DNA of 21,132 nt from a virus: IMG/VR virus record IMGVR_UViG_3300032050_013964, positions 1 to 21,132 of that record. One strand, 5' to 3'. Position 1 is the first letter of the stretch, and each line of letters opens with the position of its first letter. Positions 3,505 to 21,132 of this stretch are shown piece after piece. Under the pieces are notes generated by a model. It was not told where the DNA came from. It made no database searches and worked only from the letters and a program-made list of their open reading frames with translations. The position numbers and the translations under genes were made by a program.

Positions 3505-4392
3505 TCAAAAAATATAATGTTTTTGTCTAATATCTAAAATAGCTAGATTTTTTTGTTTGGCTTCAATTTCCAAATCCATATCAGAGTATCTAGGTAATTC
3601 TTTAATGTAGTCTGAATGTGATCTATCTAATGAATGATCTCTACCTTCACTATAGTGGAATAAAGGTTTTACTCCATATCTAGCCCATGAACTAACACAC
3701 GCTTCATGAGCTTTCCATTCCGGCTCTCCTTCATTATTAATTAATCTATGATGATAGTCTAAAGTAACAGGGGTATTGGGAAATGCTCTATGAATCTTTT
3801 GCCATGTCCAATAACTTTTATCTTCATTTTCAAATACTAGTCTAGTTCGAACTTTTATCGATAATTTATCTATATTTAAAAGCGCTGCATTGATAGCTTC
3901 CTGAGATCTTTTTCCATTAGACAGATGAATGTTGATGGGATATTGAAAGTTCTCCGGAATTCCTAAATTTGACATGATAGCTCCGTGCATTTCAAGATTA
4001 ATTAATGAAGAAGAAGATATTTTTTTATCCGGATTAGTAATAATACAAAATTGTGAAGGATGCATTGACAATCTACCACCCAAAGAAATATATTCATTAA
4101 TTTTATTTCTTGACATTAACCAATATACTTTATTATCGATATAATCATTAAAGAAATCAGAATAAGGTTCTAGATCAGCTAAAGGAAATAAAGAAGATGA
4201 AATTCTATAATGCCAAATATTATTATTAATACAATAATCTACTACTTTGCATAATTCATTTAAATTATGATCATAGATATTTTTTAATTTATTGTATATT
4301 TTATCATTATTCTTTTTAGCCCATGTAACTGTGGTAGACTTAAATTCACTAGCTTCGTTACCCAATAATAAACAACATAATCCTAATCTCAT
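3505..4392 (-). CDS. uvsE: UV damage endonuclease UvsE (UvdE family)
   Basis: This 295-residue protein matches UV damage endonuclease, a TIM-barrel metal-dependent enzyme that nicks DNA 5' to cyclobutane dimers and 6-4 photoproducts to start alternative excision repair. Visible family blocks, in order, are MRLGLCC at the start, RLSMHPSQF (residues about 107-115, family HPGQ), NIHLSNGKR (154-162), LVFENED (185-191), VTLDYHHR (209-216), HYSEGRD (246-252) with a downstream DYI, and DMDLEIEAKQKNLAIL (271-286). These supply the His, Glu and Asp metal ligands expected of the family. Length is typical. Its start overlaps the stop of the upstream lipoprotein gene by 4 bases (ATGA), indicating translational coupling. 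A second UV-lesion enzyme-family gene lies at 10973-11428. Confidence 0.92.
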   Translation of the reverse strand: MRLGLCCLLLGNEASEFKSTTVTWAKKNNDKIYNKLKNIYDHNLNELCKVVDYCINNNIWHYRISSSLFPLADLEPYSDFFNDYIDNKVYWLMSRNKINEYISLGGRLSMHPSQFCIITNPDKKISSSSLINLEMHGAIMSNLGIPENFQYPINIHLSNGKRSQEAINAALLNIDKLSIKVRTRLVFENEDKSYWTWQKIHRAFPNTPVTLDYHHRLINNEGEPEWKAHEACVSSWARYGVKPLFHYSEGRDHSLDRSHSDYIKELPRYSDMDLEIEAKQKNLAILDIRQKHYIF

Positions 4393-6344: not shown

Positions 6345-7610
6345 TTAAGCTAATAAGTCTTGTTCGACAGTTCCATTATAAACAATAGATACAGGTCTAT
6401 TTCCATCCGACATCAAATGTTTAGTTGGGTCGATACCAATTTGATTATAGATAGTAGCGGCCATATTTTCAACGGTCAACGGTTTTTCTTCTGGTTCGGC
6501 GCCTGTAGCATTAGATGCTCCATGAATATAACCTTCCTTAAATCCACCACCAGCGAAGGCTACTGAGAATACTCTTGGCCAATGGTCTCTGCCGGCATCT
6601 TTATTAATCTTGGGTGTTCTACCGAATTCAGAAGATACCATTACGATTGTATCATTAAGCATTCCCCTTTGTTCTAGATCTTTAATTAACGCAGCATATG
6701 CTTGATCGAATGCTGGTAATTGATTTTTAATATTAGCACCGATAGCAGCATGATGATCCCAACCACCATAAACAACAGAAACGAATCTTACTCCAGCTTC
6801 TACTAATCTTCTTGCCATTAAGAATCTTTGACCTGCTTGTGTTTGACCATAAGCATTACGAATATGTTCTGGTTCTTTAGAAAGTTCAAATGCTTCTCTG
6901 GCTTGTTGGGAAGAAACAAGATCATACGCTTGTTGATAAAACTTGTTCATGGATGCAATAGCATCAGCACCTTCGATGGAACGGAAATGATTATCTACTG
7001 TTTCTAGAATGCTACGACGACGATTGAATCTAGCTTCATCTACACCTGCATTCATTTTTAAATCTCTAACAGCAAAATCTTTTGATGCAGGATCTGACCC
7101 CAATGAGAAAGGACCAAAGGCTTTTGAAAGGTATCCGGTTCCGGCGTCTTCAGAATTCATATTTGGAACACAGACATAAGGAGGCAGGTAATTTCTACTT
7201 CCGAATTCATGCGCTACAACAGAACCAAATGAAGGGTACTTAATAGCTGGTGAAGGGCGATATCCCGTAAACATGTTATGGGTACCTCTCTCATGGGCTG
7301 CTTCACCGTGTGTCATAGAACGAACAACTGTGATCTTATTGGCAATCTTAGCTGTTTCTTTCATATACTCAGAGAAGTGTACACCAGGAATACTTGTTTG
7401 AACAGATCCTAATGGACCTCTGAATTCAATAGGTGCATGGATTTTTGGATCCCATGTTTCTTGTGCAGCAGCACCGCCAGGCAAGTAAATGTGAATAATT
7501 GACTGAGCTTTAGCAGAAATCTTAGACTCAGATTGAGCTCTAAGAACATCACCGGTTGTTAGGCCCAACCCTCCGAAGAGGCCAGCATAGAGGAAATCTC
7601 TTCTATTCAT
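6345..7610 (-). CDS. DUF1501 protein B, Tat-exported, alkaline phosphatase/sulfatase-like fold
   Basis: I chose the ATG at 7610 (421 residues) over an upstream TTG at 7625, because the ATG starts directly at the Tat motif MNRRDFLYAG and carries the TAAATA box at 5 bases. After the signal the protein follows DUF1501: IIHIYLPGGAAAQETWDPK, LMARRLVEAGVRFVSV, GGWDHH (about 281-286), SSEFGRT (about 323-329) and AGRDHW (about 338-343). Relative to protein A, the N-terminal GGxSHxD motif reads GGAAAQE, so the first His is Ala and the Asp is Glu. I recall similar GGxAAQETxD forms among planctomycete members, but activity may differ. The two DUF1501 proteins are clearly divergent, so they are not a recent duplication. 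It leads a minus-strand unit with the coiled-coil gene and faces a plus-strand gene across 47 bases. Confidence 0.9.
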   Translation of the reverse strand: MNRRDFLYAGLFGGLGLTTGDVLRAQSESKISAKAQSIIHIYLPGGAAAQETWDPKIHAPIEFRGPLGSVQTSIPGVHFSEYMKETAKIANKITVVRSMTHGEAAHERGTHNMFTGYRPSPAIKYPSFGSVVAHEFGSRNYLPPYVCVPNMNSEDAGTGYLSKAFGPFSLGSDPASKDFAVRDLKMNAGVDEARFNRRRSILETVDNHFRSIEGADAIASMNKFYQQAYDLVSSQQAREAFELSKEPEHIRNAYGQTQAGQRFLMARRLVEAGVRFVSVVYGGWDHHAAIGANIKNQLPAFDQAYAALIKDLEQRGMLNDTIVMVSSEFGRTPKINKDAGRDHWPRVFSVAFAGGGFKEGYIHGASNATGAEPEEKPLTVENMAATIYNQIGIDPTKHLMSDGNRPVSIVYNGTVEQDLLA

Positions 7611-7615
7611 ATTAT

Positions 7616-7623
7616 TATTTATC
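7616..7623 (-). promoter_or_regulatory. T4-late-like box GATAAATA before DUF1501 protein B
   Basis: Minus-strand GATAAATA, then ATAAT, then the ATG at 7610. Spacing and sequence match the boxes before 13741 and 89. It lies in the 47-base divergent gap shared with the 60-residue plus-strand gene. Confidence 0.5.
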
Positions 7624-7646
7624 AATTATTTGGAAACTATTTCACC

Positions 7647-7657: not shown

Positions 7658-7840
7658 ATGGCTTTTGTATGGCAAATTAAAAGGCGTTTAGCAGGAGATC
7701 CTGGACCACCTACTGTTTTAGATCCGGGTGAATTAGCTTTTAATGAAGTAGATAACACTCTTTATATAGGAACAGAAATTCAAGATCTTTCTGGTACTAG
7801 TACAGAAACATTATCTACTTCAGCTATTCCAGTTCTCTAA
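7658..7840 (+). CDS. Small tail-fibre-type protein with Mtd-N-like motif, 60 residues
   Basis: The frame is open from 7556, but the likely start is the ATG at 7658: TAAATA lies 5 bases before it, and the preceding part would overlap the divergent DUF1501 gene. The protein reads WQIKRRLAGDPGPPTVLDPG, then ELAFNEVDNTLYIG. This fits the short domain that opens many phage fibre and receptor-binding proteins (xIKxRRxxxxxxPxxLxxGELAFNExxxxLYxG, as in the N-terminal domain of the major tropism determinant). The protein at 13814-14341 shares it. Here only this domain is present, followed by a short Ser/Thr-rich tail. It ends with a 4-base stop overlap (CTAA) with the metallopeptidase gene. It may be a stand-alone attachment module or the remnant of a longer fibre gene. 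Confidence 0.7.
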   Translation: MAFVWQIKRRLAGDPGPPTVLDPGELAFNEVDNTLYIGTEIQDLSGTSTETLSTSAIPVL

Positions 7841-9069
7841 TCCATCCGGATGGTTAATCCGAATGGAGCTGTGTCTTTATTGTTGCCTCTAACCACAAAA
7901 ATGGTATCACAATAGGTTGGATCACCAAATCCATTACCTGGATACAAATCTGTGAAATTAATATAAAGCTTTGCGTCAATAGAATTATCTTTCATATATT
8001 CATATGATGCATTGAAATCAGTACCGCCACCGCCCTTTACCCCATAAGTAGAAATATCTCTACCTTCATCAGCTCGGAAGACTTCGGGATTATATACAAC
8101 CGTATCATAACTCCATACATGAATTTGATAATCACTATACTGTGACATAATACCATAAATCTCACTCAAGAATGCTTTTAAATCATCTTCATTAATAGAC
8201 CCAGAAGCATCAATACCCACACAAATGTCTAGAGTTTCATCTCTCTTCATACCAGGTAATTTAAATGGTGTAGACATACCTTTCTTGGAAGGCGAAAGGA
8301 ATGAATAATCAGAACGAATAGTACTTTGAATTTGATTACGAAGAATCTCTCTCCAATTCATTTTAGGTGAAGATAGCCCTTCAATAATACGACCCATTCC
8401 TTTTGGAATGTTACCAGCACAATTCTGGGCAGCAGCCATCAGCTGTGATTTGATTTCATCACGAAGCTTCTGCTTTTCTTCTTCTGACATACCTTCCATA
8501 TTAGGACGCTTACCTTTACCCTTACCATCTTTCTCATCATCATCCTTACCACCAGAAAGATGTTCATCTAGAAGCTTATCTACCATCTCATCTAACGTCA
8601 TTCCTGCAAATGTATTATTCTTATCCAATTCTTCTTTGATCTTATCATAGATTTGCTCAGCAGATAGATCTCTGAATTGTTGGTCTAAGAGAGTACCGGG
8701 AATTTGCTTTCCAATATTATTATCAGAAAGAATTAGATTAATAGCAAAGTCTGCAGCAACATTCCAAAGCTTAGGTTCTCTATTTCCTCTACGAATATGA
8801 TGCTCAAAACAATTATGAAGCACTTCATGTGCATAAAGAAACACCGTCTCTTGTGTAGAGAGTGCATGAATGAATGCTGGATTATAAAAGAAATTACGAC
8901 CATCTGTTGCAGCTGTATCACACCAATCTTCTGCACGAGTACGTTTGAGGTGTGGTACCATTTGACCAAAGAAAGGATGCTTAATTAGCAACGAAACAGC
9001 AGCCTTGACCAATTTTTCCTCAACAGCTGGAATATTAATATTTTCAATCTTTTCGAGCTTCTTTTTCAT
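7837..9069 (-). CDS. VWA-like metallopeptidase (DUF2201 family)
   Basis: This 410-residue protein has two parts. The N-terminal half carries YAHEVLHNCFEHH (HExxH at residues 81-85), a zinc-peptidase motif, followed by LWNVAADFAINLIL as in the DUF2201 N-terminal domain. A charged linker (about 170-215: GGKDDDEKDGKGKGKRPNME) precedes the C-terminal VWA-like domain, with MIDAS motif GIDASGSI (about 284-291), a GGGGTDFN threonine site and FTDLYPG. Proteins of this type occur next to MoxR-family ATPases, and here a MoxR gene lies directly upstream, so the pair probably acts together in metal-dependent remodelling or chaperoning of a target complex. A class A promoter ends 7 bases before the ATG, downstream of a terminator hairpin, so the gene can be expressed apart from the ATPase. 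The target is unknown. Confidence 0.9.
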   Translation of the reverse strand: MKKKLEKIENINIPAVEEKLVKAAVSLLIKHPFFGQMVPHLKRTRAEDWCDTAATDGRNFFYNPAFIHALSTQETVFLYAHEVLHNCFEHHIRRGNREPKLWNVAADFAINLILSDNNIGKQIPGTLLDQQFRDLSAEQIYDKIKEELDKNNTFAGMTLDEMVDKLLDEHLSGGKDDDEKDGKGKGKRPNMEGMSEEEKQKLRDEIKSQLMAAAQNCAGNIPKGMGRIIEGLSSPKMNWREILRNQIQSTIRSDYSFLSPSKKGMSTPFKLPGMKRDETLDICVGIDASGSINEDDLKAFLSEIYGIMSQYSDYQIHVWSYDTVVYNPEVFRADEGRDISTYGVKGGGGTDFNASYEYMKDNSIDAKLYINFTDLYPGNGFGDPTYCDTIFVVRGNNKDTAPFGLTIRMD

Positions 9070-9151: not shown

Positions 9152-10243
9152 TCAATCATTACTATCAAAAACATACTTACCGTACTTATTAAAGAAATCA
9201 TCAAACGAGGTTAGCTTCTTTGGATCAATATCCAATTCATAATTAGTCAAAGCTACCTTAGCACCCATGATAACCAATTCTGTAGGAAAATTATCCATCA
9301 TGAAACGGAAGTAGCGATCAGCATAATCATGCCATTTCTTCGTCTTAGCATTTGCCAATTCTTTCAATTCATAACAGAGAGAAACCGTTAGAGAATACAT
9401 TGCAGATACCTCACGACTTTCTTTGTTCTTAAGCTCTGTTACTTTACCTTCAAGAATATCAATTGCCTTAGGTAACTTACCGCAAAGCTTACGATGTGCT
9501 ACGAACTTCAAAGCCAATCCATCCCCAATAGCTCCCGATACGAGATCTGTCAAAGAATTAACATCTTCATCTTCATCCCAGAGAAGATCAGATACGAAAT
9601 TCCAGGTACGCGGACATGCAAAAGAACGAGATGGAGACTGCGGATCAAAATTGAAAAGATCTTGCTTTGCAAATGAAATATAACCAATAACGTCAGGGTG
9701 AACATTATGATTCACCGCCCAATCTACCCAGTCATCATTAGACACTGTCATTTCGAGATGAATAAACCGTGAAGCCAATGGAGCTGGCATCTTATAGGTA
9801 ACGCCGCGATCACCTTCACGATTACCAGCAGCTACAATGTCTACACCATCTGGCAAACGATACTTACCTACACGGCGATTCAAGATCAACTGATAAGCTG
9901 CAGCTTGAACAGCAGGAGGTGCTGAAACAATTTCATCCAAGAAGACGATTGCTTTACTATTTGGATCATGCGGCAATTCACTTGGAGGTGCCCAATTCAT
10001 AGTGCCGTCTTTTTCATTAAGATAAGGCATTCCCTTAATATCCGTAGGATCCCAGAGAGCCAAACGAATGTCGATCACTTCGCGGCCTTGTTCTGCACCG
10101 ATTTGTGCAACGACGTCACTCTTACCGATTCCAGGAGGACCCCAGAGCATGATTGGGCGACGCTTAGACATAGCACGCTTAATTGCTTTGGTTGCTGATT
10201 TCGGACTGATGGTTCTGATTGTGGTATTTGATGTAGTAGCCAT
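9152..10243 (-). CDS. MoxR-family AAA+ ATPase
   Basis: This 363-residue protein is a MoxR-type AAA+ ATPase. Walker A is GPPGIGKS (35-42), Walker B is AIVFLDEI (98-105), sensor 1 is GNREGDRG (139-146, Asn140), and the arginine finger lies in PAPLASRF (about Arg158). Length and order are normal for the family. MoxR ATPases remodel or activate partner proteins, typically with a VWA-domain partner; the VWA-like metallopeptidase gene follows directly downstream, separated by a terminator and its own promoter. The ATG is at 10243, with a class A promoter motif 20 bases upstream, the longest such gap here, leaving room for a short leader. Codon and base use look like the neighbouring genes, so there is no sign of recent transfer. 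Confidence 0.93.
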   Translation of the reverse strand: MATTSNTTIRTISPKSATKAIKRAMSKRRPIMLWGPPGIGKSDVVAQIGAEQGREVIDIRLALWDPTDIKGMPYLNEKDGTMNWAPPSELPHDPNSKAIVFLDEIVSAPPAVQAAAYQLILNRRVGKYRLPDGVDIVAAGNREGDRGVTYKMPAPLASRFIHLEMTVSNDDWVDWAVNHNVHPDVIGYISFAKQDLFNFDPQSPSRSFACPRTWNFVSDLLWDEDEDVNSLTDLVSGAIGDGLALKFVAHRKLCGKLPKAIDILEGKVTELKNKESREVSAMYSLTVSLCYELKELANAKTKKWHDYADRYFRFMMDNFPTELVIMGAKVALTNYELDIDPKKLTSFDDFFNKYGKYVFDSND

Positions 10244-11432: not shown

Positions 11433-11900
11433 ATGAGTTCTTTTAAACAATTTTACACAGAGACTGTTAATAAATTTAATACTGAATGGCAAGATGCCAG
11501 AACAGATGCCAAGAAAATCAAAGATGTTGATGATAAAATTGCATTTGTAAAAAAGTTTATTAACGATAGCCCCACTAAGGCTAATTTAGGAAGAGTATTA
11601 AACTGGGCAAGAATGACAAAATTAGGTTATTCTACCTCTCCTGAAAAGCAGTCCAAGTTTGATGATTTTATTGATTACCTACAAAACAATGAAGAAAAAT
11701 ATTCCGGAGAAGATAAAGATGTTGATCTTTATGATATTTCAGAAGAGCGTTTTAAGAAAATTTATAAAGATTTGATTAATAGAAGAAATGATTTCCAACA
11801 CGGCGGAAAGAGACCAGAAACCATGATAGCTTATCTAGCTAAGATGAAATCTGTAGCTAAGGAACGTGATATTGAATTACCTACAGATAAACAAGATTAA
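11433..11900 (+). CDS. Hypothetical helical protein, 155 residues
   Basis: Unrecognised. The protein is highly charged and helix-rich: it begins MSSFKQFYTETVNKFN, contains a basic-acidic middle (DVDDKIAFVKKFIND) and ends with AKMKSVAKERDIELPTDKQD. No signal peptide, membrane segment or known motif. It starts 4 bases after the glycosylase-family stop, so the two are probably one transcript. It ends in a TTAA 4-base stop overlap with the facing fibre gene. Confidence 0.75.
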   Translation: MSSFKQFYTETVNKFNTEWQDARTDAKKIKDVDDKIAFVKKFINDSPTKANLGRVLNWARMTKLGYSTSPEKQSKFDDFIDYLQNNEEKYSGEDKDVDLYDISEERFKKIYKDLINRRNDFQHGGKRPETMIAYLAKMKSVAKERDIELPTDKQD

Positions 11901-13741
11901 TAAGTAACGGCAATTCTTCCTTCAAATATTCTTGATACAATATCGCCCGCAGTTTCATCTGCATCTGATGCTGTTTGTTTGGGTGGATATAATACTATGT
12001 TATAAGAAACATTAGGATTAAATACATCATCATAAACATACATTTCACCTCTAACGGTTACCATAACTGGTGTACTACCATACATGAATGATTTCAATTC
12101 ATATGTAAACATATGAATTATTGTGCCATTATTCTGAAAAATTGTTGTATTTGGCCATCCACCAGAATCTATATAATTTAATTCCAGAGTAAAACTTTGA
12201 CCTAAATTTTTATATTGAGTTGTATCATTTCTAAAAGTAGGGAGACTATACCATGGTGCTGCATATCTAAATTGTGATTCTGTAATATTCCAACTTGTAA
12301 TAGTACCATTGCCATTTTGATTGTCACCACATTCAGGATGTATTTGCCTGAAATCACCCGCTGAAAGTATCGAAACTGACTGGTCTTGTGGTCCGTTAGC
12401 ATATGTATTACCTCCGTCAGTTTGAGTATTAATAACGTAGTTGGTATTAGACGCGGGGGTTTGTTGTCTTTGCGTTATAGTGCCATCTGATACAGCCACA
12501 ATTGTACCTCCGGTTACCATACCAGTATTCGGATCCGTGGTGCCGGTACCTGCTTGAACTCCTGTAACTACATTCACACTTGTAACTCTAACATTGCCTA
12601 ATCGACCTCTTATTGTTCCGTCAGCACGGACTCCTTGTATGGATATTGAAGGTGAAAAATTTGATCTTGCGTTTGCTGGAGTGCCTGTGTAATTCCAACT
12701 AATTACACCTATATTATTTAAAAACATCTTTCTATATAAAACCGGCGATCCTAAATAGGGAGTCGACCAATCAGCATGACCCGCATTGCCTCGTGCAGCG
12801 TCAGCTATTTTAATTATTTTTTTCCATGGAGTTACTCCTGTTATAGTAATGGGATTAAAGACAGAACCAGCAGAATTAAATGTGGATAATTTACCGGTAT
12901 TGGTAGCACCGTACCACCTAGGATCAAAACTAGATTGATATCTACCCAAACCTACTGAAACTGCTTGATACGGTTCCCACTTAGTTGTATTTCCATTGTA
13001 TCGCAATAATGCGCCGTCCACAGCACCATCACCCGGCAATAAATCTTGTGGTTTGATAAATGGCGTATTATTTGTATTTGTTATAGAATTTGTAACAGTA
13101 ATATTAGTTGCATTAACAGATGTAGCTGTTACTGTTCCATTAGGTACATTAAGATTTCCATTATTAACAGTTAACCCATTATTAGATATCAAAGAATTTC
13201 CCGTTATTGTTCCATTAGGCACATTCAACGAACCATTATTAACGGTAACTCCATTATTGGATACCAAAGAATTTCCCGTTATTGTTCCATTAGGAACACT
13301 AATGTTTCCATTATTAACGGTAACTCCATTATTAGATACCAAAGAATTTGCGTTAATTGCATCGGCATTTACCAAGGAACCTCCGGTTAAATCTAAATTT
13401 CCATTATTAACAGTTAAACCATTATTAGATATCAAAGAATTTCCAGTCACTGTTCCGTTAGGTACATTGAGGTTTCCATTTGCGACATTTAACCCCGTTT
13501 CTGCTGTGACGTGTCTGAATGACGCATATGCATTTAATCCTGAAATATCACCTTCAAAAGAAATGCCTTTATCTGTAGATATGTCACCGGATGCGTGAAT
13601 ATTATTTCCAGATCTAATATTATCTGTAGTAGTAATCTTCCCGTATACTGAAAGTCCTGTATCTATAGGAATGTTATCACCACCGATTACAATATTAGGA
13701 GAAGTAAATCTTTGTTGTTGTGTTACCTTTTCAATTCCCAT
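11897..13741 (-). CDS. Repeat-containing tail fibre-like protein, 614 residues
   Basis: I use the ATG at 13741 (MGIEKVTQQQRF) rather than a TTG at 13759, because the ATG carries the AATAAATA box at 5 bases. Residues about 70-215 consist of near-identical repeats of about 25 residues (NNGVTVNNGNISVPNGTITG, NSLVS), which suggest a beta-helical or shaft structure. Next comes DLLPGDGAVDGALLRYNGNT plus TKWEPYQ, a phrase type common in phage tail-fibre and baseplate proteins at the junction of shaft and tip. The remaining about 340 residues are Gly-, Asn- and Thr-rich beta sequence, without a recognisable catalytic motif. I infer a fibre or adhesin for host binding. It converges with the plus-strand gene ending at 11900. 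Confidence 0.82.
   Translation of the reverse strand: MGIEKVTQQQRFTSPNIVIGGDNIPIDTGLSVYGKITTTDNIRSGNNIHASGDISTDKGISFEGDISGLNAYASFRHVTAETGLNVANGNLNVPNGTVTGNSLISNNGLTVNNGNLDLTGGSLVNADAINANSLVSNNGVTVNNGNISVPNGTITGNSLVSNNGVTVNNGSLNVPNGTITGNSLISNNGLTVNNGNLNVPNGTVTATSVNATNITVTNSITNTNNTPFIKPQDLLPGDGAVDGALLRYNGNTTKWEPYQAVSVGLGRYQSSFDPRWYGATNTGKLSTFNSAGSVFNPITITGVTPWKKIIKIADAARGNAGHADWSTPYLGSPVLYRKMFLNNIGVISWNYTGTPANARSNFSPSISIQGVRADGTIRGRLGNVRVTSVNVVTGVQAGTGTTDPNTGMVTGGTIVAVSDGTITQRQQTPASNTNYVINTQTDGGNTYANGPQDQSVSILSAGDFRQIHPECGDNQNGNGTITSWNITESQFRYAAPWYSLPTFRNDTTQYKNLGQSFTLELNYIDSGGWPNTTIFQNNGTIIHMFTYELKSFMYGSTPVMVTVRGEMYVYDDVFNPNVSYNIVLYPPKQTASDADETAGDIVSRIFEGRIAVTY
13132..13500 (-). repeat. Direct repeats (75-base unit) within the fibre gene
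   Basis: Units of 75 bases coding about 25 residues recur: a 29-base stretch beginning at 13191 recurs at 13266, and CAAAGAATTT occurs near 13190, 13265, 13340 and 13433, the last step being 93 bases because one unit is longer. The repeats code for the NNGxTVNNG-type protein repeats. Confidence 0.85.
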
Positions 13742-13746
13742 ATTTT

Positions 13747-13754
13747 TATTTATT
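13747..13754 (-). promoter_or_regulatory. T4-late-like box AATAAATA before the fibre gene
   Basis: Minus-strand AATAAATA, then AAAAT, then the ATG at 13741. It lies in the 72-base divergent gap opposite a plus-strand CATAAATA box. Confidence 0.5.
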
Positions 13755-13793
13755 AACAAAGCTTTGCATATGCTTTTATTTTTTTAATAGTTG

Positions 13794-13801: not shown

Positions 13802-13813
13802 GTGATACTGACC

Positions 13814-14341
13814 ATGCCAGAGTATAGTACGATAAAAATAAAACGAAGAAGGGTAGGATCTGCGGGGGCCCCCTCTAGTTTAAAAAATGGCGAACTGGCC
13901 TTCAATGAAATAAATGACGTTCTTTACTATGGTAGTGGTGAAAATGGGAACGGAGATGCCACGAATATTATTCCAATAGGTGGTAGAGAATATTATACCA
14001 TATCATATGATATAAACACTCCAGAGTCTTTAGTGGGAGGAGAAGATGTTAATTATTTTACTGTTCCATTTAATTTGAATGTAGTAGCTTGGACTTTATT
14101 AGCTACCGTTACTGGTTCTGTTCTATTAGATATACAAACTTGTGATTATGACAATTATCCCAATATGATATCTATATGTAACAACAATAAACCATTTATA
14201 TCTAATGATATAAAGAATAGAGACTTAGATGTTTTGGATTGGGAAGAATATCTTCAAAAAGATAATATATTAATAATAAAAGCACTGTCAGCGGAAAATA
14301 TTGACCGCGTGACAGTGCTTTTAAAATGTGAGAGGGTTTAG
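13814..14341 (+). CDS. Tail fibre/receptor-binding protein with Mtd-N-like N-terminus, 175 residues
   Basis: I choose the ATG at 13814 (MPEYSTIKIKRRRVG) over an upstream GTG at 13802, because the latter directly abuts the promoter-like box. Residues about 5-45 show IKIKRRR, then SLKNGELAFNEINDVLYYG, the same motif as the 60-residue gene at 7658. The C-terminal part (NYFTVPFNLNVVAWTLLATV, LLDIQTCDYDNYP, VTVLLKC at the end) matches, from memory, a common phage fibre domain with FxVPFxxxIxxWTLxAxxTGSxxxDI. It is the only gene of its plus-strand island, divergent from the 614-residue fibre and convergent with the 66-residue gene (TTAG overlap). A terminator hairpin is embedded in its 3' coding sequence. 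A role in virion attachment is likely. Confidence 0.8.
   Translation: MPEYSTIKIKRRRVGSAGAPSSLKNGELAFNEINDVLYYGSGENGNGDATNIIPIGGREYYTISYDINTPESLVGGEDVNYFTVPFNLNVVAWTLLATVTGSVLLDIQTCDYDNYPNMISICNNNKPFISNDIKNRDLDVLDWEEYLQKDNILIIKALSAENIDRVTVLLKCERV
14278..14322. terminator. Bidirectional hairpin terminator embedded in coding sequence
   Basis: AGCACTGTCA-GCGG (14281-14294) pairs with CCGC-g-TGACAGTGCT (14305-14319) with a single bulged G (14309), giving about 14 base pairs around a 10-base A/T-rich loop. On the minus strand it is followed by TTTTATTATTA and lies 19 bases past the 66-residue gene, so it can end the giant-gene transcript. On the plus strand TTTTAAAA follows, just before the stop of the 13814 gene. 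Confidence 0.75.
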
Positions 14342-14544: not shown

Positions 14545-17500
14545 TTAGTTGTTAATTAATTTCCAATCATCTACGTAGATAGACCCGATGGTGCCATCAC
14601 AATCTACATAAAATTCCATTATGCCATTTCCCTGCACAACTGGAGTTGTTGCGGTTACCGCAGTGTAAGTTGTTGTCTTGGGTATTGTATATAAAATATG
14701 ATCTTGTGGAATTCCTATCGATGAATTTTTCTTAATAATCAATCTCGGATTATTTCCATTATAATCATTTGATACAGCTACATTTAATTTCACTGTTACA
14801 TCATTTCCATCATTAATAGATACAAATTTACTACCAGATTTAAATTTATCAGTCGCAGAATATGGCGTTAATTTCTCAGCAACATTTCCTGCTGATAAAG
14901 TTGTATCAGTGCTTCGTTTTCCTAATCTTGTATATGATTCATGATTACCAACTACACCATTTTTATTCATGAATACTACACCCGCTGTTTTAATATTTCT
15001 AACAGGTAAACATGATAGATTTTGTACACCCGCACTTGTAATGGATGTATTTGTAAATTGATAAGACCCTAACACATAACCGCTCAAAGAAATGGAATAT
15101 CCTGTAGTTACATTAGAAATAGTTGAATTATCGAAATTAAAATTTGAAAATTCTGTATCTCTAATATATAAGGGTATGCCAGTATAATTATTTGTTAATA
15201 AAGTACTTTTATCTAAAAATACTTTATTGAAATTTACTGGATTGTAACTCTTAGATGAATGTATAATTATATTTGGATTATTATTACCCATCAATGATGT
15301 TAATCCATTTATCTTAGTGAACCCCGAACCCAATTTAAATTGAGCATTGTTATTAGTACTATTTGCAATATAAACTCCGGATAAAATAGTTGTCATATTA
15401 TTAATAATAAATCCTATTGTTTTATTACCTTCAATATACAAATCTTTTGCAGTTACAGACATTGATTCTCTGTAATCATTATTTGTACTGCTAATAGAAA
15501 TACCGAAGGTAGTGTTATTAACACTGCTTATATTAGAGATAGTAGTATTTTCAATATTGGTATTTGATCCATCTACAAACATGCCGCCCGCAGTATTGTA
15601 ATAATTTTCTATATTGTTTATATTAGTAGTACCTGTTTTTATTGTTCGTTTATATAATAAAACAGTATCACTATCAACTGTGAATGGAGTAATGGGTATT
15701 GTAATATTATTTTGCGAAGCATATACAGCCGATCTTAATACACGGAACCCATATACTGATTTTGATATTGAATCTAATGTCGAAGATCCAATAGCAATCC
15801 CTGCCACGGTACCATCAAATTCAAAGTTAGACGAATATGTGCCTAATCTTTCACCGTTAAAATATAATGAAATAACACCGTCTTCTCTGCACACTGCAAT
15901 ATGATGCCATATACTAAGAGGTGCATATGGTACAGTAACAGTAATTTTAGCGGTATTCGTACTTTCATTAGTATAGAATTTCAATACTCTAGTATTGACC
16001 ACATAAGTTAATTTTATTGAGCCAATACCTTCAACTCCGGGATTAGTAACAAACAATCTAGATTCTTGTGTACTTGCTGCATTGAACTTAAAGAATCCTT
16101 CTATTGTAAAATCATCTTCAAATAAATAGCTAGAATTTTTATTCCACGAAATAGATTTTGTATACGATCCTGTGCATGTTTCTTCGGGGAAAGAATCGGC
16201 AAATGGCGTATCGAATGAAACCGTATTATTTGTTGCTTCATCATTTACAACAGTATCATTATTTGTTAAGTCTATATTTTCGCCTTTGCTAGGCGTAGCA
16301 AAATATAAACCGTGTGAAGTGTTCAGCCAATTTTTTATGCCGTTTACATATCCATCTACGTTATCTATGAATGTACCTCTACTACCATTTGCTATAGCAA
16401 TGTTATTAGACATTACAACATCAGCATTTAATGAAATATTTTCAAAACGCAATCCATTTAACCCCGAACGCAATAGCAAGTTATTGGAAATATTAGAATT
16501 ATATAATGATTTATTAATACAAAGTGCATCACCAGAATGATTATAGAAGGTATTATTTAATAAATTTAAATTATAGCATTTATCGAATAAATTATTTCCA
16601 TTCACATTAGTGCTGCCTGTTCCATCTATATAGCACCCAGATAATAAAGCATATCCATCTTGATTAACATTGAATATTAATGATTCTGTAGTTACACCAT
16701 CCATACCGAGATTTTCAAATTCAGTATCACAAATATAGCTATTTGATGATTTATCGAATTGTATCCAACCACGGCGTGAAGAATTTAATCCTTTAATTGA
16801 TATATTTCTTGATGCATTTACTACTGTAGGTATACCATCATAATTTTGGTGAATATAAACTGATGCAGATGTTGTAGATAATCTATTATTAACTGTTGAT
16901 CTTGCTGTTAATTCATCGAATTGTGCAGCAGCTGCAGATGTTGGTAACAATAATAAACTATCACCAGATAACCAATTAACAGGAGTTTCATTAAATGTGA
17001 ATACAGTAGAGCTAGCTGCGTGTGATCCAGTTAGAGTAACATATCCTGTCTTTTGAAGACCTGCTACCTGTAAGCTACCACCATGCATAACATGTATTTT
17101 TGATTCGACAAGATTTACTGTTTTTTTGTAACCAAAACCGGCAGACAATACAAATTTACCACCCGCACCAATCTTCAATCCATTATTTGTAATGTTGATA
17201 TTTGAATTGGTATTTGAAGGCGATGTAAGTACTCCGCCATTTTGTATAGATATATTATTTAAAAGAGTATCACTTAAGCTGTTATTAACAGTCAATTGTG
17301 TTTTTTCATTCCCATTCAAATATCCTGTTATAACAGTCTTTTCAATAGGACCTGGTTTATAATATAAAGTATCTTTTGCATTATTATAGAGAAATACCGT
17401 ATCTGCTGTTGCTGATAATGTGGATGGTACTACTACTGTAGTAGTATTGAAATTTCCGTCATATAATGCGCGACCATCTATAATTCTTGTATTATATATA

Positions 17501-20500
17501 TCTCCATAAAAAACAGCTTGCGCACCAAAGGCATCATCAACTCCTAAAGCACCAATAAGCATTGCGGTAGTTGATAATGGATTCATTTGCACATCAATAT
17601 TAGCGGTAGATGCAGTTGTGCGCGTACCATTTACATACATTGATAAATTATTATTTTTCTTACATACAGCTACGTGTGACCACGCACTTAATGATCCCGC
17701 CGCAGACAAATTTATACCATTAGGTAATAATGAATTGCGCAATTTATAAGCACCATCGCTATAACATAAAGACAAATCATTAATTGATAGTATTGTTCTT
17801 TCAGTAAGACCAAATATTACCGTATTTTCTTTTGCGGAAGTAAGTGGATATACATATGTTTCTATGGTCCAATCTCCTTTGCTTTGGAAGTTTGTTAAAG
17901 GTGCCCTCAGGAAACGATTACCGGGTATAAACAATGAAGCGGTAGTGCCGGGAGCACTGCGTGATGGCAGTCGCGAAGAAGTCAAAGCATAAAAATTGGT
18001 TAAATTACCAGTTTTTGAATATTCAGTTATGCTAGATAATTTCTCTGCTGCAGATGTTATAATATGGCTATTTACTGGTGCGATAATATTGTTCAGCTTC
18101 AAAAACAATGATACGTTGCCCATATTATTAACACCCGTGCCACCATCTTGTGTTAATGTAGCCGCTGCACTAGGCAATGCATAATTGCTAGTATGAACAC
18201 ATTCTCCGTTAATAATTCTGATTGATGTTAATTTGCCATCATATCTACCTTTATTTCTAGAAGCATCACCATATATGCCTACGAAGGCACCATTTACAAT
18301 ACCATCATTGTAATTTACACTGTTAATAGCCGATGCATCAAATACCCCATCTCTATAAACAGAAAGTGTTGATCCTTTTCTTCCTATACCTACATGATGC
18401 CATATACCATCAGCATAATCAAAATTTGTTGAAAGAATATTAGTATTAGAAAATAATTGCAATTTTCTATCATTTCCTGTAGCATTAATGCATACATGTA
18501 ATGCGCTCACAGAACTGACACTGCCTAGTGTAATGATTCTTCTGCTTAATGTATCATGACCAAATTTGCTACTTTTCATCCAAAAATCAATCCAAAAATC
18601 ATTTGAAAAATCTAAACTTAGGCTAGCAGGTAGCTGTAAGTAATTGTTATTTTTTCTGCCATTAAATATCAAAGTATTTTCTTTATAATTTGTTGATGCA
18701 TTTACGGTATCATCTAAAGATACTGCAAATGAATTTCCTTCTAATAAAATATTATTATTAGCAGATGCATCATATATTCCAGCTTTAATGCCATTAATTA
18801 ATAAATTTGGACTCACTGTTAACAATGTAGCACCGAACCCAGTTGCACCATTATCTGTCAACGTTAGTGCTGAACTGGATGGTATAAAAAATTCATTATA
18901 CAAACATTCACCTTTAGTTATTCTCACATCGGACATATATCCTTTGCAGTTATTCTCACCTAATTTAATACTATTATTATCATTAAACAAATTCAAACCC
19001 ACATAAGACAATGTTCTGGCTGTTTTTCCATTAATAAATAATCTATAATTATTTGATGATCTTGTAAGTGCAATATGATTCCATTGATTTGTGAATGATC
19101 CCGTTCCGTTTAATGTTACGTCAGCAATATTATTATTGCCCAATTCAGCTCTTATTTCATTAGAATTAATAAAACTAAATTTTATACCGTCGGCTAAAGT
19201 ATCTGTACCCTGCCATGTCAATAATGGCGTGTCACCAGTTGGATCACCTACTGCATAATACCAAAATTCAACGGTAAAATCACTACTTCCGAATGTATAT
19301 TCGTCATTTTTTTCACTAACAGTAATTAAATCCCCTGTGCCATCAAAATATATACTTCCACCGTGAGAATATTTATTATATATTTCTTCGGGCGAAAATG
19401 GACTAAACTCTGCTGAAGGTGCTTGTGTAATAGATGCACCATTTAATAAATTAGGATATGATATGTCTGTAGCTGGGTTAGTAGATTTATCATCAGCTTC
19501 TAGAAGCAAAACATTCTCGATCAATGGATATTCGGTTGGTGTATTTCCATAAAGTGCACCACCGTTGCCATTGACTGTTAATGTGGATGTTGGCGGGGTA
19601 AAATCATTGACATAAAGTGCTTGATTTTTTGTAATACGCAAATCAGATATATAACCATCGAATACATTTATGGGCGTTGAAAAATCAGCACCAATTCGCA
19701 TCGTGCCGCCTGTATATGTTTGATAAAATGATGTTTGTTTTAATATACCATCAACGTACAAATATACATTGAACATATTCATAACTACTGCAATATGATG
19801 CCAATTATTATCCAATTGTGTATCAGATATTATTAAATCACCGAACACGGGTATACCATTTTGCAAATTCAAATTAAAATAGCTATTAGCTATATTAAAT
19901 ATAGGTTGTTTAGCTAAATTTTTATTATTTGTTTTAACCCAGCATTCAATAGTAAATCCCAACCACGTCTGCGGATTAAAATCATTAGTATTTTCAAATT
20001 CAATGTAATCTGCATATACATTTTTATGGTTTATATAATTAGGTGAAAATGCATATGAATATTTTTTGGTATCTATCAATGATCGCTGTGTTGCAACAGA
20101 TGATTTATTAGATATGGGCCCGGGAAAGGTTGAATATATTGTCCTATTATACGAACTTTCATCCTTAAACTGGCTATGAGTCGAATCGAGACTAGATGCA
20201 TCAACATTACCATCAATACAAAATACTGCATCTTTCAAATAATAATCTCTAGCAGTGATAGAAAAATTAGATGTATAAACAGCTTTATTTAATAATGTCA
20301 CATTATCAATGTGACCATAAAAATGCCCGTTGCCGTCATTTCCTATATAAATTGGTTGACTGTCCGAAAAAATAGGACTAGCTAAATTTACAGAAGATAA
20401 TAATACTCCATTGACATAAGCTTTTAATGTATTATCAACTGAGACAAACGCCATGTCATATATATGTGTTGATCTACCCCCCCAAAGCCCCATATCATCA

Positions 20501-21132
20501 TTTCTTATCATGAAAATACTATTCCAAGTAGTTCCATTTGTTGAATATCTAAAAGTAACACCTCTAGAGGCTGCTGCTATAGCAGTTCTTCCGTCATATT
20601 CTAATCTAAATGATCCTACGGCGGAACCAAAGCTTTTTGAAACTATAGCTCCACGCCCAAAATACATGTCACTAAATATTTGAAATCTACAGCGTAATGT
20701 AAATTCTGAAGAATTGAAATTTGTATTTAATATTGATATACTGTCATTTACGCCGTTAAAGTAAATTACTTTATCATCTTCCCATTTGCCTACTACATAA
20801 GCTGGGGGTGTATTTGACACTATTTTTGGCGCGCCACCTATTATCAAATCATTATTTCCGGATCTATCAAATATTTGTTTGTTTTTATTATTGAAATGCA
20901 ATAATAATTGTGTGCCTGATATAGCTGATAATGGAATATCAGCTTCCGGTCTTGTAAAATCACCAGTATATACTGCTGTATTAGTAATTCTGAAATTTTT
21001 TAATGATAATCCATCTAAATTTTCATTCAATAAAAAACTCGAACCTATATACTGCCTATTACCAAAACTAAATGTTGTTGCAGCGGTACCATAAGAACCT
21101 TGCAAAATTCCATCTAGATATAATTTAATGGG
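14545..21132 (-). CDS. Giant tail-fibre/adhesin with repeated LamG-like lectin and beta-helix domains (partial)
   Basis: The frame is open to the right edge, so the start is outside the window; at least 2195 residues are visible. Numbering from the edge, concanavalin/LamG-type modules recur, each with a Y/F-[VILF]-[DNR]-G hairpin: LYLDGI (4-9), AYVNGVLLSS (about 240), LYVDGILKQT (457), LFINGKTART (700), VYRDGVFDAS (930), MYVNGTRTTA (1170) and LYFNGERLGT (1760). Most are followed by an FRITNTAVY- or VRITKGECLY-type strand. Between about 1300 and 1640, and again about 1810-1970, Asn/Gly-rich repeats (NLLNNTFYNHSGDALCIN) suggest parallel beta-helix, pectate-lyase-like folds. The C-terminus (VTVKLNVAVSNDYNGNNPRL, then YVDDWKL) resembles terminal modules of phage fibres. 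No signal peptide is visible. The likely role is binding or degrading host surface glycans. The 66-residue gene follows at 6 bases. Confidence 0.85.
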   Translation of the reverse strand, partial: PIKLYLDGILQGSYGTAATTFSFGNRQYIGSSFLLNENLDGLSLKNFRITNTAVYTGDFTRPEADIPLSAISGTQLLLHFNNKNKQIFDRSGNNDLIIGGAPKIVSNTPPAYVVGKWEDDKVIYFNGVNDSISILNTNFNSSEFTLRCRFQIFSDMYFGRGAIVSKSFGSAVGSFRLEYDGRTAIAAASRGVTFRYSTNGTTWNSIFMIRNDDMGLWGGRSTHIYDMAFVSVDNTLKAYVNGVLLSSVNLASPIFSDSQPIYIGNDGNGHFYGHIDNVTLLNKAVYTSNFSITARDYYLKDAVFCIDGNVDASSLDSTHSQFKDESSYNRTIYSTFPGPISNKSSVATQRSLIDTKKYSYAFSPNYINHKNVYADYIEFENTNDFNPQTWLGFTIECWVKTNNKNLAKQPIFNIANSYFNLNLQNGIPVFGDLIISDTQLDNNWHHIAVVMNMFNVYLYVDGILKQTSFYQTYTGGTMRIGADFSTPINVFDGYISDLRITKNQALYVNDFTPPTSTLTVNGNGGALYGNTPTEYPLIENVLLLEADDKSTNPATDISYPNLLNGASITQAPSAEFSPFSPEEIYNKYSHGGSIYFDGTGDLITVSEKNDEYTFGSSDFTVEFWYYAVGDPTGDTPLLTWQGTDTLADGIKFSFINSNEIRAELGNNNIADVTLNGTGSFTNQWNHIALTRSSNNYRLFINGKTARTLSYVGLNLFNDNNSIKLGENNCKGYMSDVRITKGECLYNEFFIPSSSALTLTDNGATGFGATLLTVSPNLLINGIKAGIYDASANNNILLEGNSFAVSLDDTVNASTNYKENTLIFNGRKNNNYLQLPASLSLDFSNDFWIDFWMKSSKFGHDTLSRRIITLGSVSSVSALHVCINATGNDRKLQLFSNTNILSTNFDYADGIWHHVGIGRKGSTLSVYRDGVFDASAINSVNYNDGIVNGAFVGIYGDASRNKGRYDGKLTSIRIINGECVHTSNYALPSAAATLTQDGGTGVNNMGNVSLFLKLNNIIAPVNSHIITSAAEKLSSITEYSKTGNLTNFYALTSSRLPSRSAPGTTASLFIPGNRFLRAPLTNFQSKGDWTIETYVYPLTSAKENTVIFGLTERTILSINDLSLCYSDGAYKLRNSLLPNGINLSAAGSLSAWSHVAVCKKNNNLSMYVNGTRTTASTANIDVQMNPLSTTAMLIGALGVDDAFGAQAVFYGDIYNTRIIDGRALYDGNFNTTTVVVPSTLSATADTVFLYNNAKDTLYYKPGPIEKTVITGYLNGNEKTQLTVNNSLSDTLLNNISIQNGGVLTSPSNTNSNINITNNGLKIGAGGKFVLSAGFGYKKTVNLVESKIHVMHGGSLQVAGLQKTGYVTLTGSHAASSTVFTFNETPVNWLSGDSLLLLPTSAAAAQFDELTARSTVNNRLSTTSASVYIHQNYDGIPTVVNASRNISIKGLNSSRRGWIQFDKSSNSYICDTEFENLGMDGVTTESLIFNVNQDGYALLSGCYIDGTGSTNVNGNNLFDKCYNLNLLNNTFYNHSGDALCINKSLYNSNISNNLLLRSGLNGLRFENISLNADVVMSNNIAIANGSRGTFIDNVDGYVNGIKNWLNTSHGLYFATPSKGENIDLTNNDTVVNDEATNNTVSFDTPFADSFPEETCTGSYTKSISWNKNSSYLFEDDFTIEGFFKFNAASTQESRLFVTNPGVEGIGSIKLTYVVNTRVLKFYTNESTNTAKITVTVPYAPLSIWHHIAVCREDGVISLYFNGERLGTYSSNFEFDGTVAGIAIGSSTLDSISKSVYGFRVLRSAVYASQNNITIPITPFTVDSDTVLLYKRTIKTGTTNINNIENYYNTAGGMFVDGSNTNIENTTISNISSVNNTTFGISISSTNNDYRESMSVTAKDLYIEGNKTIGFIINNMTTILSGVYIANSTNNNAQFKLGSGFTKINGLTSLMGNNNPNIIIHSSKSYNPVNFNKVFLDKSTLLTNNYTGIPLYIRDTEFSNFNFDNSTISNVTTGYSISLSGYVLGSYQFTNTSITSAGVQNLSCLPVRNIKTAGVVFMNKNGVVGNHESYTRLGKRSTDTTLSAGNVAEKLTPYSATDKFKSGSKFVSINDGNDVTVKLNVAVSNDYNGNNPRLIIKKNSSIGIPQDHILYTIPKTTTYTAVTATTPVVQGNGIMEFYVDCDGTIGSIYVDDWKLINN

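Follow-up and report, generated by a model that had tools for sequence, protein, structure and literature searches.

A putative tailspike-like adhesin of an uncultured phage that combines LamG modules with a G8-type beta-helix scaffold

The window analysed here, a virus record of 21,132 bases taken as a whole, ends in part of a giant gene whose product is most plausibly a tailspike-like adhesin borne on the tail of an uncultured phage, with a glycan specificity that would be exchangeable through its LamG modules; we give this reading a probability of roughly 70%. On the minus strand, the frame at 14545-21132 runs for 2195 codons without a stop and is open at its 5' end, which lies past the high end of the window. 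The complete gene is present in a sibling contig, L007 (955-8982), which is 99.99% identical to the window over 16,585 bases; there it begins with ATG and encodes 2675 aa, and the window protein corresponds exactly to residues 481-2675, the 3' 2195 codons of 2675. An earlier, sequence-only reading of the window had put the protein at more than 2195 residues, which was borne out once the full gene was obtained. With its LamG modules set aside, the protein has three parts: the N-domain, a beta-helix of the G8 type, and a C-domain that resembles a CBM. In the arrangement that we propose, the N-domain would probably serve for attachment to the tail, followed by a right-handed beta-helix that appears related by sequence to animal TMEM2 and by fold to phage tailspikes, and then by a C-domain that is probably CBM4/16-like. 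Seven LamG modules would be placed between the N-domain and the helix, and an eighth would interrupt the sequence of the helix while leaving the helix itself unbroken. The LamG array may bind host-surface glycans with avidity, and the helix may bind or cleave polysaccharide. Virion location, glycan binding, and any enzyme activity of the giant are properties that we infer.

The LamG modules are clearly recognizable in the sequence. All six window modules that were scored lie above the curated cut-off of Pfam LamG_3 (PF13385, 27.6 bits), with E values of 4e-20 to 1e-11, and a seventh is sliced by the window edge, where it occupies residues 1-51 of the window protein. A profile made from the modules themselves finds eight in the full L007 protein, seven within residues 185-1699 and the eighth at 2138-2280. 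The sequence-only reading was therefore right to count at least seven, as the six scored modules are joined by the one cut at the edge. In the window, all on the minus strand, these are the C-terminal part of LamG2 (20980-21132), LamG3 (20287-20748), LamG4 (19627-20013), LamG5 (18913-19335), LamG6 (18208-18648; the most conserved LamG, with 72% identity to its counterpart in L008), LamG7 (17476-17919), and LamG8 (15733-16161). Each was delimited by the module profile and, LamG2 aside, by Pfam, with the addition of the comparison across phages for LamG2 to LamG7, among which LamG2, LamG3, and LamG7 are the variable modules, and of an AlphaFold2 (AF2) model for LamG8. As for their fold, AF2 modelling of the sibling protein over residues 1-540 (mean pLDDT 67.5) gives LamG1 a LamG (ConA-like) sandwich, with Z up to 13.6 against solved structures; the scores are near 13 for pentraxin-type chains and about 11-12 for the LG domains of laminin and neurexin. 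The expectation that the modules fold as LamG thus holds for LamG1 of the sibling; LamG8 was modelled with modest confidence.

The helix was delimited in two parts on the minus strand, the first (16297-17268) by the AF2 model and family profiles and including a G8-like start with a G8 profile match at about 16657-17301, and the second (15022-15627) by the AF2 model and structure alignment. The model, which covers residues 1225-2195 of the window protein, has a mean pLDDT of 74.7; both helix parts score well, LamG8 and the linkers are weaker, and 196 of the 971 residues fall below 50. In VIA-align, model residues 59-813 align with the tailspike of cyanophage Pam1 (7eea; Z 23.9, rmsd 3.2, 415 residues aligned) and residues 129-779 with AlgE4 (Z 23.5, rmsd 3.0, 321 aligned), and the helix also aligns with the Sf6 tailspike (2vbm; Z 21.8, rmsd 3.6, 335 aligned). 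Because the Pam1 and AlgE4 alignments span the LamG8 insert, the two parts are predicted to form one continuous right-handed beta-helix of the tailspike type. The sequence-only reading had described two beta-helix segments with a LamG module between them; the intervening module stands (Pfam E 3.8e-10), and the separate segments give way to a single predicted helix. The insert is a LamG module, and no GG family row appears among the matches listed. Phage tailspikes lead the Foldseek results, in which TMEM2 ranks sixth (E 2.6e-8) and CBM4-2 and CBM16 chains follow further down, with matches that are short and about as long as the C-domain; TMEM2 is absent among the 50 VIA-align matches listed for the helix model. 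At the level of sequence, the top match of the family profile in the PDB is human TMEM2 (8c6i, E 4.4e-18), in two stretches that correspond to the G8 start and to the later helix. Pfam G8 (PF10162) has no match in the window protein, where the helix parts stay under the Pfam cut-offs, and matches weakly in 8 of 35 members of the family alignment (E <= 0.1, best 1.7e-4).

The terminal domains are less readily placed. The C-domain (14548-14976, minus strand), delimited by profile search and Foldseek and common to 53 viral loci, is a predicted CBM4/16-like jelly roll; it has no convincing sequence family in Pfam or the PDB, and one family member gives a weak LamG row (E 3.2e-4). Likewise, the N-domain has no convincing sequence relative, one member matching DUF4082 weakly, and no match for it stands out among the structure matches listed for the model of residues 1-540, which are those of LamG1.

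The company that the helix keeps among known folds raises the possibility that the giant is a polysaccharide-degrading tailspike, in which the helix would act as a lyase or hydrolase, held to its substrate by the LamG modules and the C-domain. The best fold matches include alginate epimerases and lyases, capsule lyases, and O-antigen tailspikes, the C-domain is CBM-like, and the PDB entry of the best sequence match, TMEM2, names it a cell surface hyaluronidase. However, strongly conserved residues are concentrated at the start of the helix and in the C-domain rather than in the central helix, where the family alignment has no alignable conserved acidic pair or catalytic residues, and the TMEM2 structure report describes an ectodomain with no hyaluronidase activity seen and no assignable active site (PMC10206443). 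We regard a degradative role as a contender, with the odds somewhat against it. For the tailspike-like adhesin, the same alignments bear on the idea of the sequence-only reading that the lectin modules imply glycan binding by the virion: a modular LamG and helix protein is what we find, and its being virion-borne and glycan-binding is plausible, as the helix aligns with tailspikes and with enzymes that act on polysaccharides. The further idea of a structure as long as the tail itself is not supported, the length being put very roughly at 30-50 nm from typical module sizes.

The scaffold also occurs on its own. A C-domain search of viral contigs yielded 53 loci, with three near-identical pairs among them; 39 have the full plan of N-domain, G8-like region, and C-domain, eight have no detected N-domain (including the 5'-truncated L009, with seven LamG modules), and six have the C-domain only. 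LamG-free proteins, meaning those with no match to the module profile at E 1e-3, make up 36 of the 39, and all but two of these are 807-881 aa long, the remaining two having 1003 and 2064 aa. The full-plan members with LamG are three: the window's sibling L007 (eight modules), L015 (eight; the same contig as L008), and L061 (four). Profiles built from 30 LamG-free members (the 36 minus three near-identical copies, L028, L048, and L049) match the full giant protein in the N-domain (E 8e-13), in G8 (4.8e-16), and in G8 plus helix (6e-23), with shuffled or reversed copies reaching at most about 4 bits; an earlier leave-out test with four LamG-free sequences had found the C-domain in the eight-LamG proteins and missed the N-domain and G8. 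The scaffold has no match in 50,697 GenBank phage records, queried with the C-domain and with a whole 820-aa member, and in bacterial genome contigs it occurs at two loci only, both metagenome-assembled. These comparisons indicate that one common scaffold has gained or lost LamG modules, and we favour gain because LamG-free members are widely spread. Family relatives upstream at two other loci (L079 8051-11398 and L063 2799-5861) carry a single LamG before the C-domain. The module of L079 lies about 300 aa past the G8 region, whereas in the giant this distance is about 175; the modules also do not group, and a separate insertion is suggested.

The history of the array itself was followed in three versions of the giant, W (L007 and the window), A (L008), and B (L009, 5'-truncated). 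The module tree, whose bootstrap support is not settled and which has some long branches, clusters the modules of W, A, and B by position, and modules within any one protein share only about 12-28% identity; the array is therefore old, with its order retained. A repeat scan found no long internal DNA repeats, the best direct repeats being 23-34 nt and diverged. On the module tree and the repeat scan we reject recent tandem duplication, and the growth by duplication and shuffling proposed from the sequence alone is not supported as a recent process. What has changed recently would instead be the content of particular positions. Between A and B, identity is 97-100% for LamG5, LamG6, and LamG8 and 90% for LamG4, but only 24-33% for LamG2, LamG3, and LamG7. 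Differences at fourfold sites are 0-0.10 for LamG5, LamG6, LamG8, the helix, and the C-domain, an intermediate 0.38 for LamG4, and 0.59-0.67, that is, saturated, for LamG2, LamG3, and LamG7. Ahead of LamG7, a stretch of some 60 codons sees nucleotide identity fall from about 96% to about 45%, and after the module it is back at 98%. Differences of this kind are best read as replacement rather than point mutation. The whole giant gene also appears to have been exchanged among related phages, besides LamG2, LamG3, and LamG7, because it and the downstream genes give conflicting relationships: among the downstream genes, compared across about 5 kb, W and B are 94.3% identical, with W-A and A-B both at about 84.5%, whereas the giant genes of A and B hardly differ except in the variable modules and the W protein is only about half identical to that of A. 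The case for exchange rests on three metagenome contigs, with chimeric assembly as the main caveat.

Switching by a diversity-generating retroelement (DGR) or by inversion finds no support, as no reverse transcriptase (PF00078) was detected in four records, which are possibly fragmentary, the repeat scan found no convincing invertible repeats, and the synonymous differences are saturated. The suggestion of broad or switchable glycan binding therefore divides: the replacement of LamG2, LamG3, and LamG7 between phages makes broad specificity plausible, and switching within one genome is unsupported. In the adhesin reading, these three modules would determine strain specificity and be altered by recombination. 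It is unlikely, in our estimate, that the giant is instead a structural whisker or decoration whose LamG modules serve mainly as spacers or adhere weakly to glycans in the environment instead of recognizing a receptor. An array of LamG modules need not in itself be specific for a receptor, and arrays of 5-7 LamG modules without the G8 scaffold do occur in other viral contigs (L072, L080, L081, L082, L083, and L084), but the module-specific replacement of LamG2, LamG3, and LamG7 resembles selection on recognition more than on spacing.

The neighbourhood of the gene is consistent with the tail role of the proposed adhesin and supports it, short of proof. Convergent with the giant is a 179-aa gene (13802-14341, plus strand) with a phage structural-protein domain (phrog_10330), found at the same position in L007, L008, and L009; it has phrog_10330/phrog_35197 in common with the end of a tail-fibre-like gene of L008 (1265-2782) and with L100:4276-6066. 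The next gene downstream (11897-13759, minus strand) encodes 620 aa, in a slot that is taken in L008 and L009 by longer proteins of the NHL/RCC1 type (1236 and 1381 aa, respectively); it contains a 75-base tandem repeat in three copies at 13128-13349. In L008, a minor-tail/tail-fibre-family gene is followed by a 1008-aa relative (one LamG plus the C-domain) and then by the giant. A family paralog lies directly upstream in 5 of 36 loci (L007, L008, L061, L045, and L055), collagen-like runs of at least 50 aa occur in 4 of 36 upstream genes, and a match of the directly upstream gene to the commonest tail-fibre PHROG is limited to 5 of the 36 loci. The records nearest to the window (L007, L008, and L009) have no detected terminase, and the window holds non-structural genes, as might be expected if the giant were not a virion protein at all and were secreted or displayed by the infected cell. 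However, a collagen-like or minor tail protein is encoded two genes upstream of the giant in L008, tail-fibre genes neighbour some family loci, and the 236-kb record of L061 does have terminase matches, so we consider a non-virion role very improbable. The genes in question, all on the minus strand, encode ThyX (94-804), a UvdE-type UV endonuclease (3505-4392), and a VWA/DUF2201 and MoxR-type ATPase pair (7837-9069 and 9152-10243). The window also has two DUF1501 genes without a PHROG match (1271-2635, E 1.6e-134, and 6345-7625, E 1.3e-110; both minus strand). Ten further proteins of the L008 contig include a DnaB-like helicase and few others that could be named, and the search for a near DNA match among GenBank phages found none.

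Taken further, and with a good deal of hesitation, these data might point to an unrecognised family of phage G8-type beta-helix tailspikes, homologous to TMEM2/CEMIP2, absent from cultured phage records in two queries, and acting on host polysaccharides, in which one lineage gave rise to a giant adhesin with LamG cassettes that change singly between phages, so that receptor specificity would evolve module by module. The literature searched contained no paper on a G8 phage protein. The function of the TMEM2-like helix in animals is disputed, and the link made here is to a family of phage proteins with a small LamG-free form that could be expressed and assayed. LamG2, LamG3, and LamG7 are the likely host-specificity modules, and they offer a testable case of modular receptor-binding evolution.

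Multi-LamG phage proteins per se are already known and are not rare. Of the 50,697 GenBank phage records, 85 match the window protein at E 1e-5, and one paper mentions LamG domains in several gene products, whose function it considers unclear, and cites a receptor-binding prediction (PMC8541153). Such proteins resemble the giant in their size and in their LamG_3-type modules, often several in one protein, but the large array proteins of the six other loci do not match the 30-member scaffold profiles. The beta-helix tailspikes of Pam1 (7eea), Sf6 (2vbm), P22, and LKA1 (gp49, 4ru4) have the right-handed beta-helix that is predicted here and, like the giant, a terminal domain of carbohydrate-binding-like fold. 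In contrast to them, the giant has seven LamG modules ahead of the helix and one within it, and its kinship at the level of sequence is instead with the G8/TMEM2 type. The giant and the ectodomain of CEMIP2/TMEM2 (8c6i) are homologous by sequence profile at the G8 start and along the helix, and their N- and C-domains are unlike. Both have a lectin-like domain inserted in a continuous beta-helix, predicted as such in the giant, which in TMEM2 is POMGNT1-like and follows three turns, whereas in the giant it is a LamG module located further along (PMC10206443).
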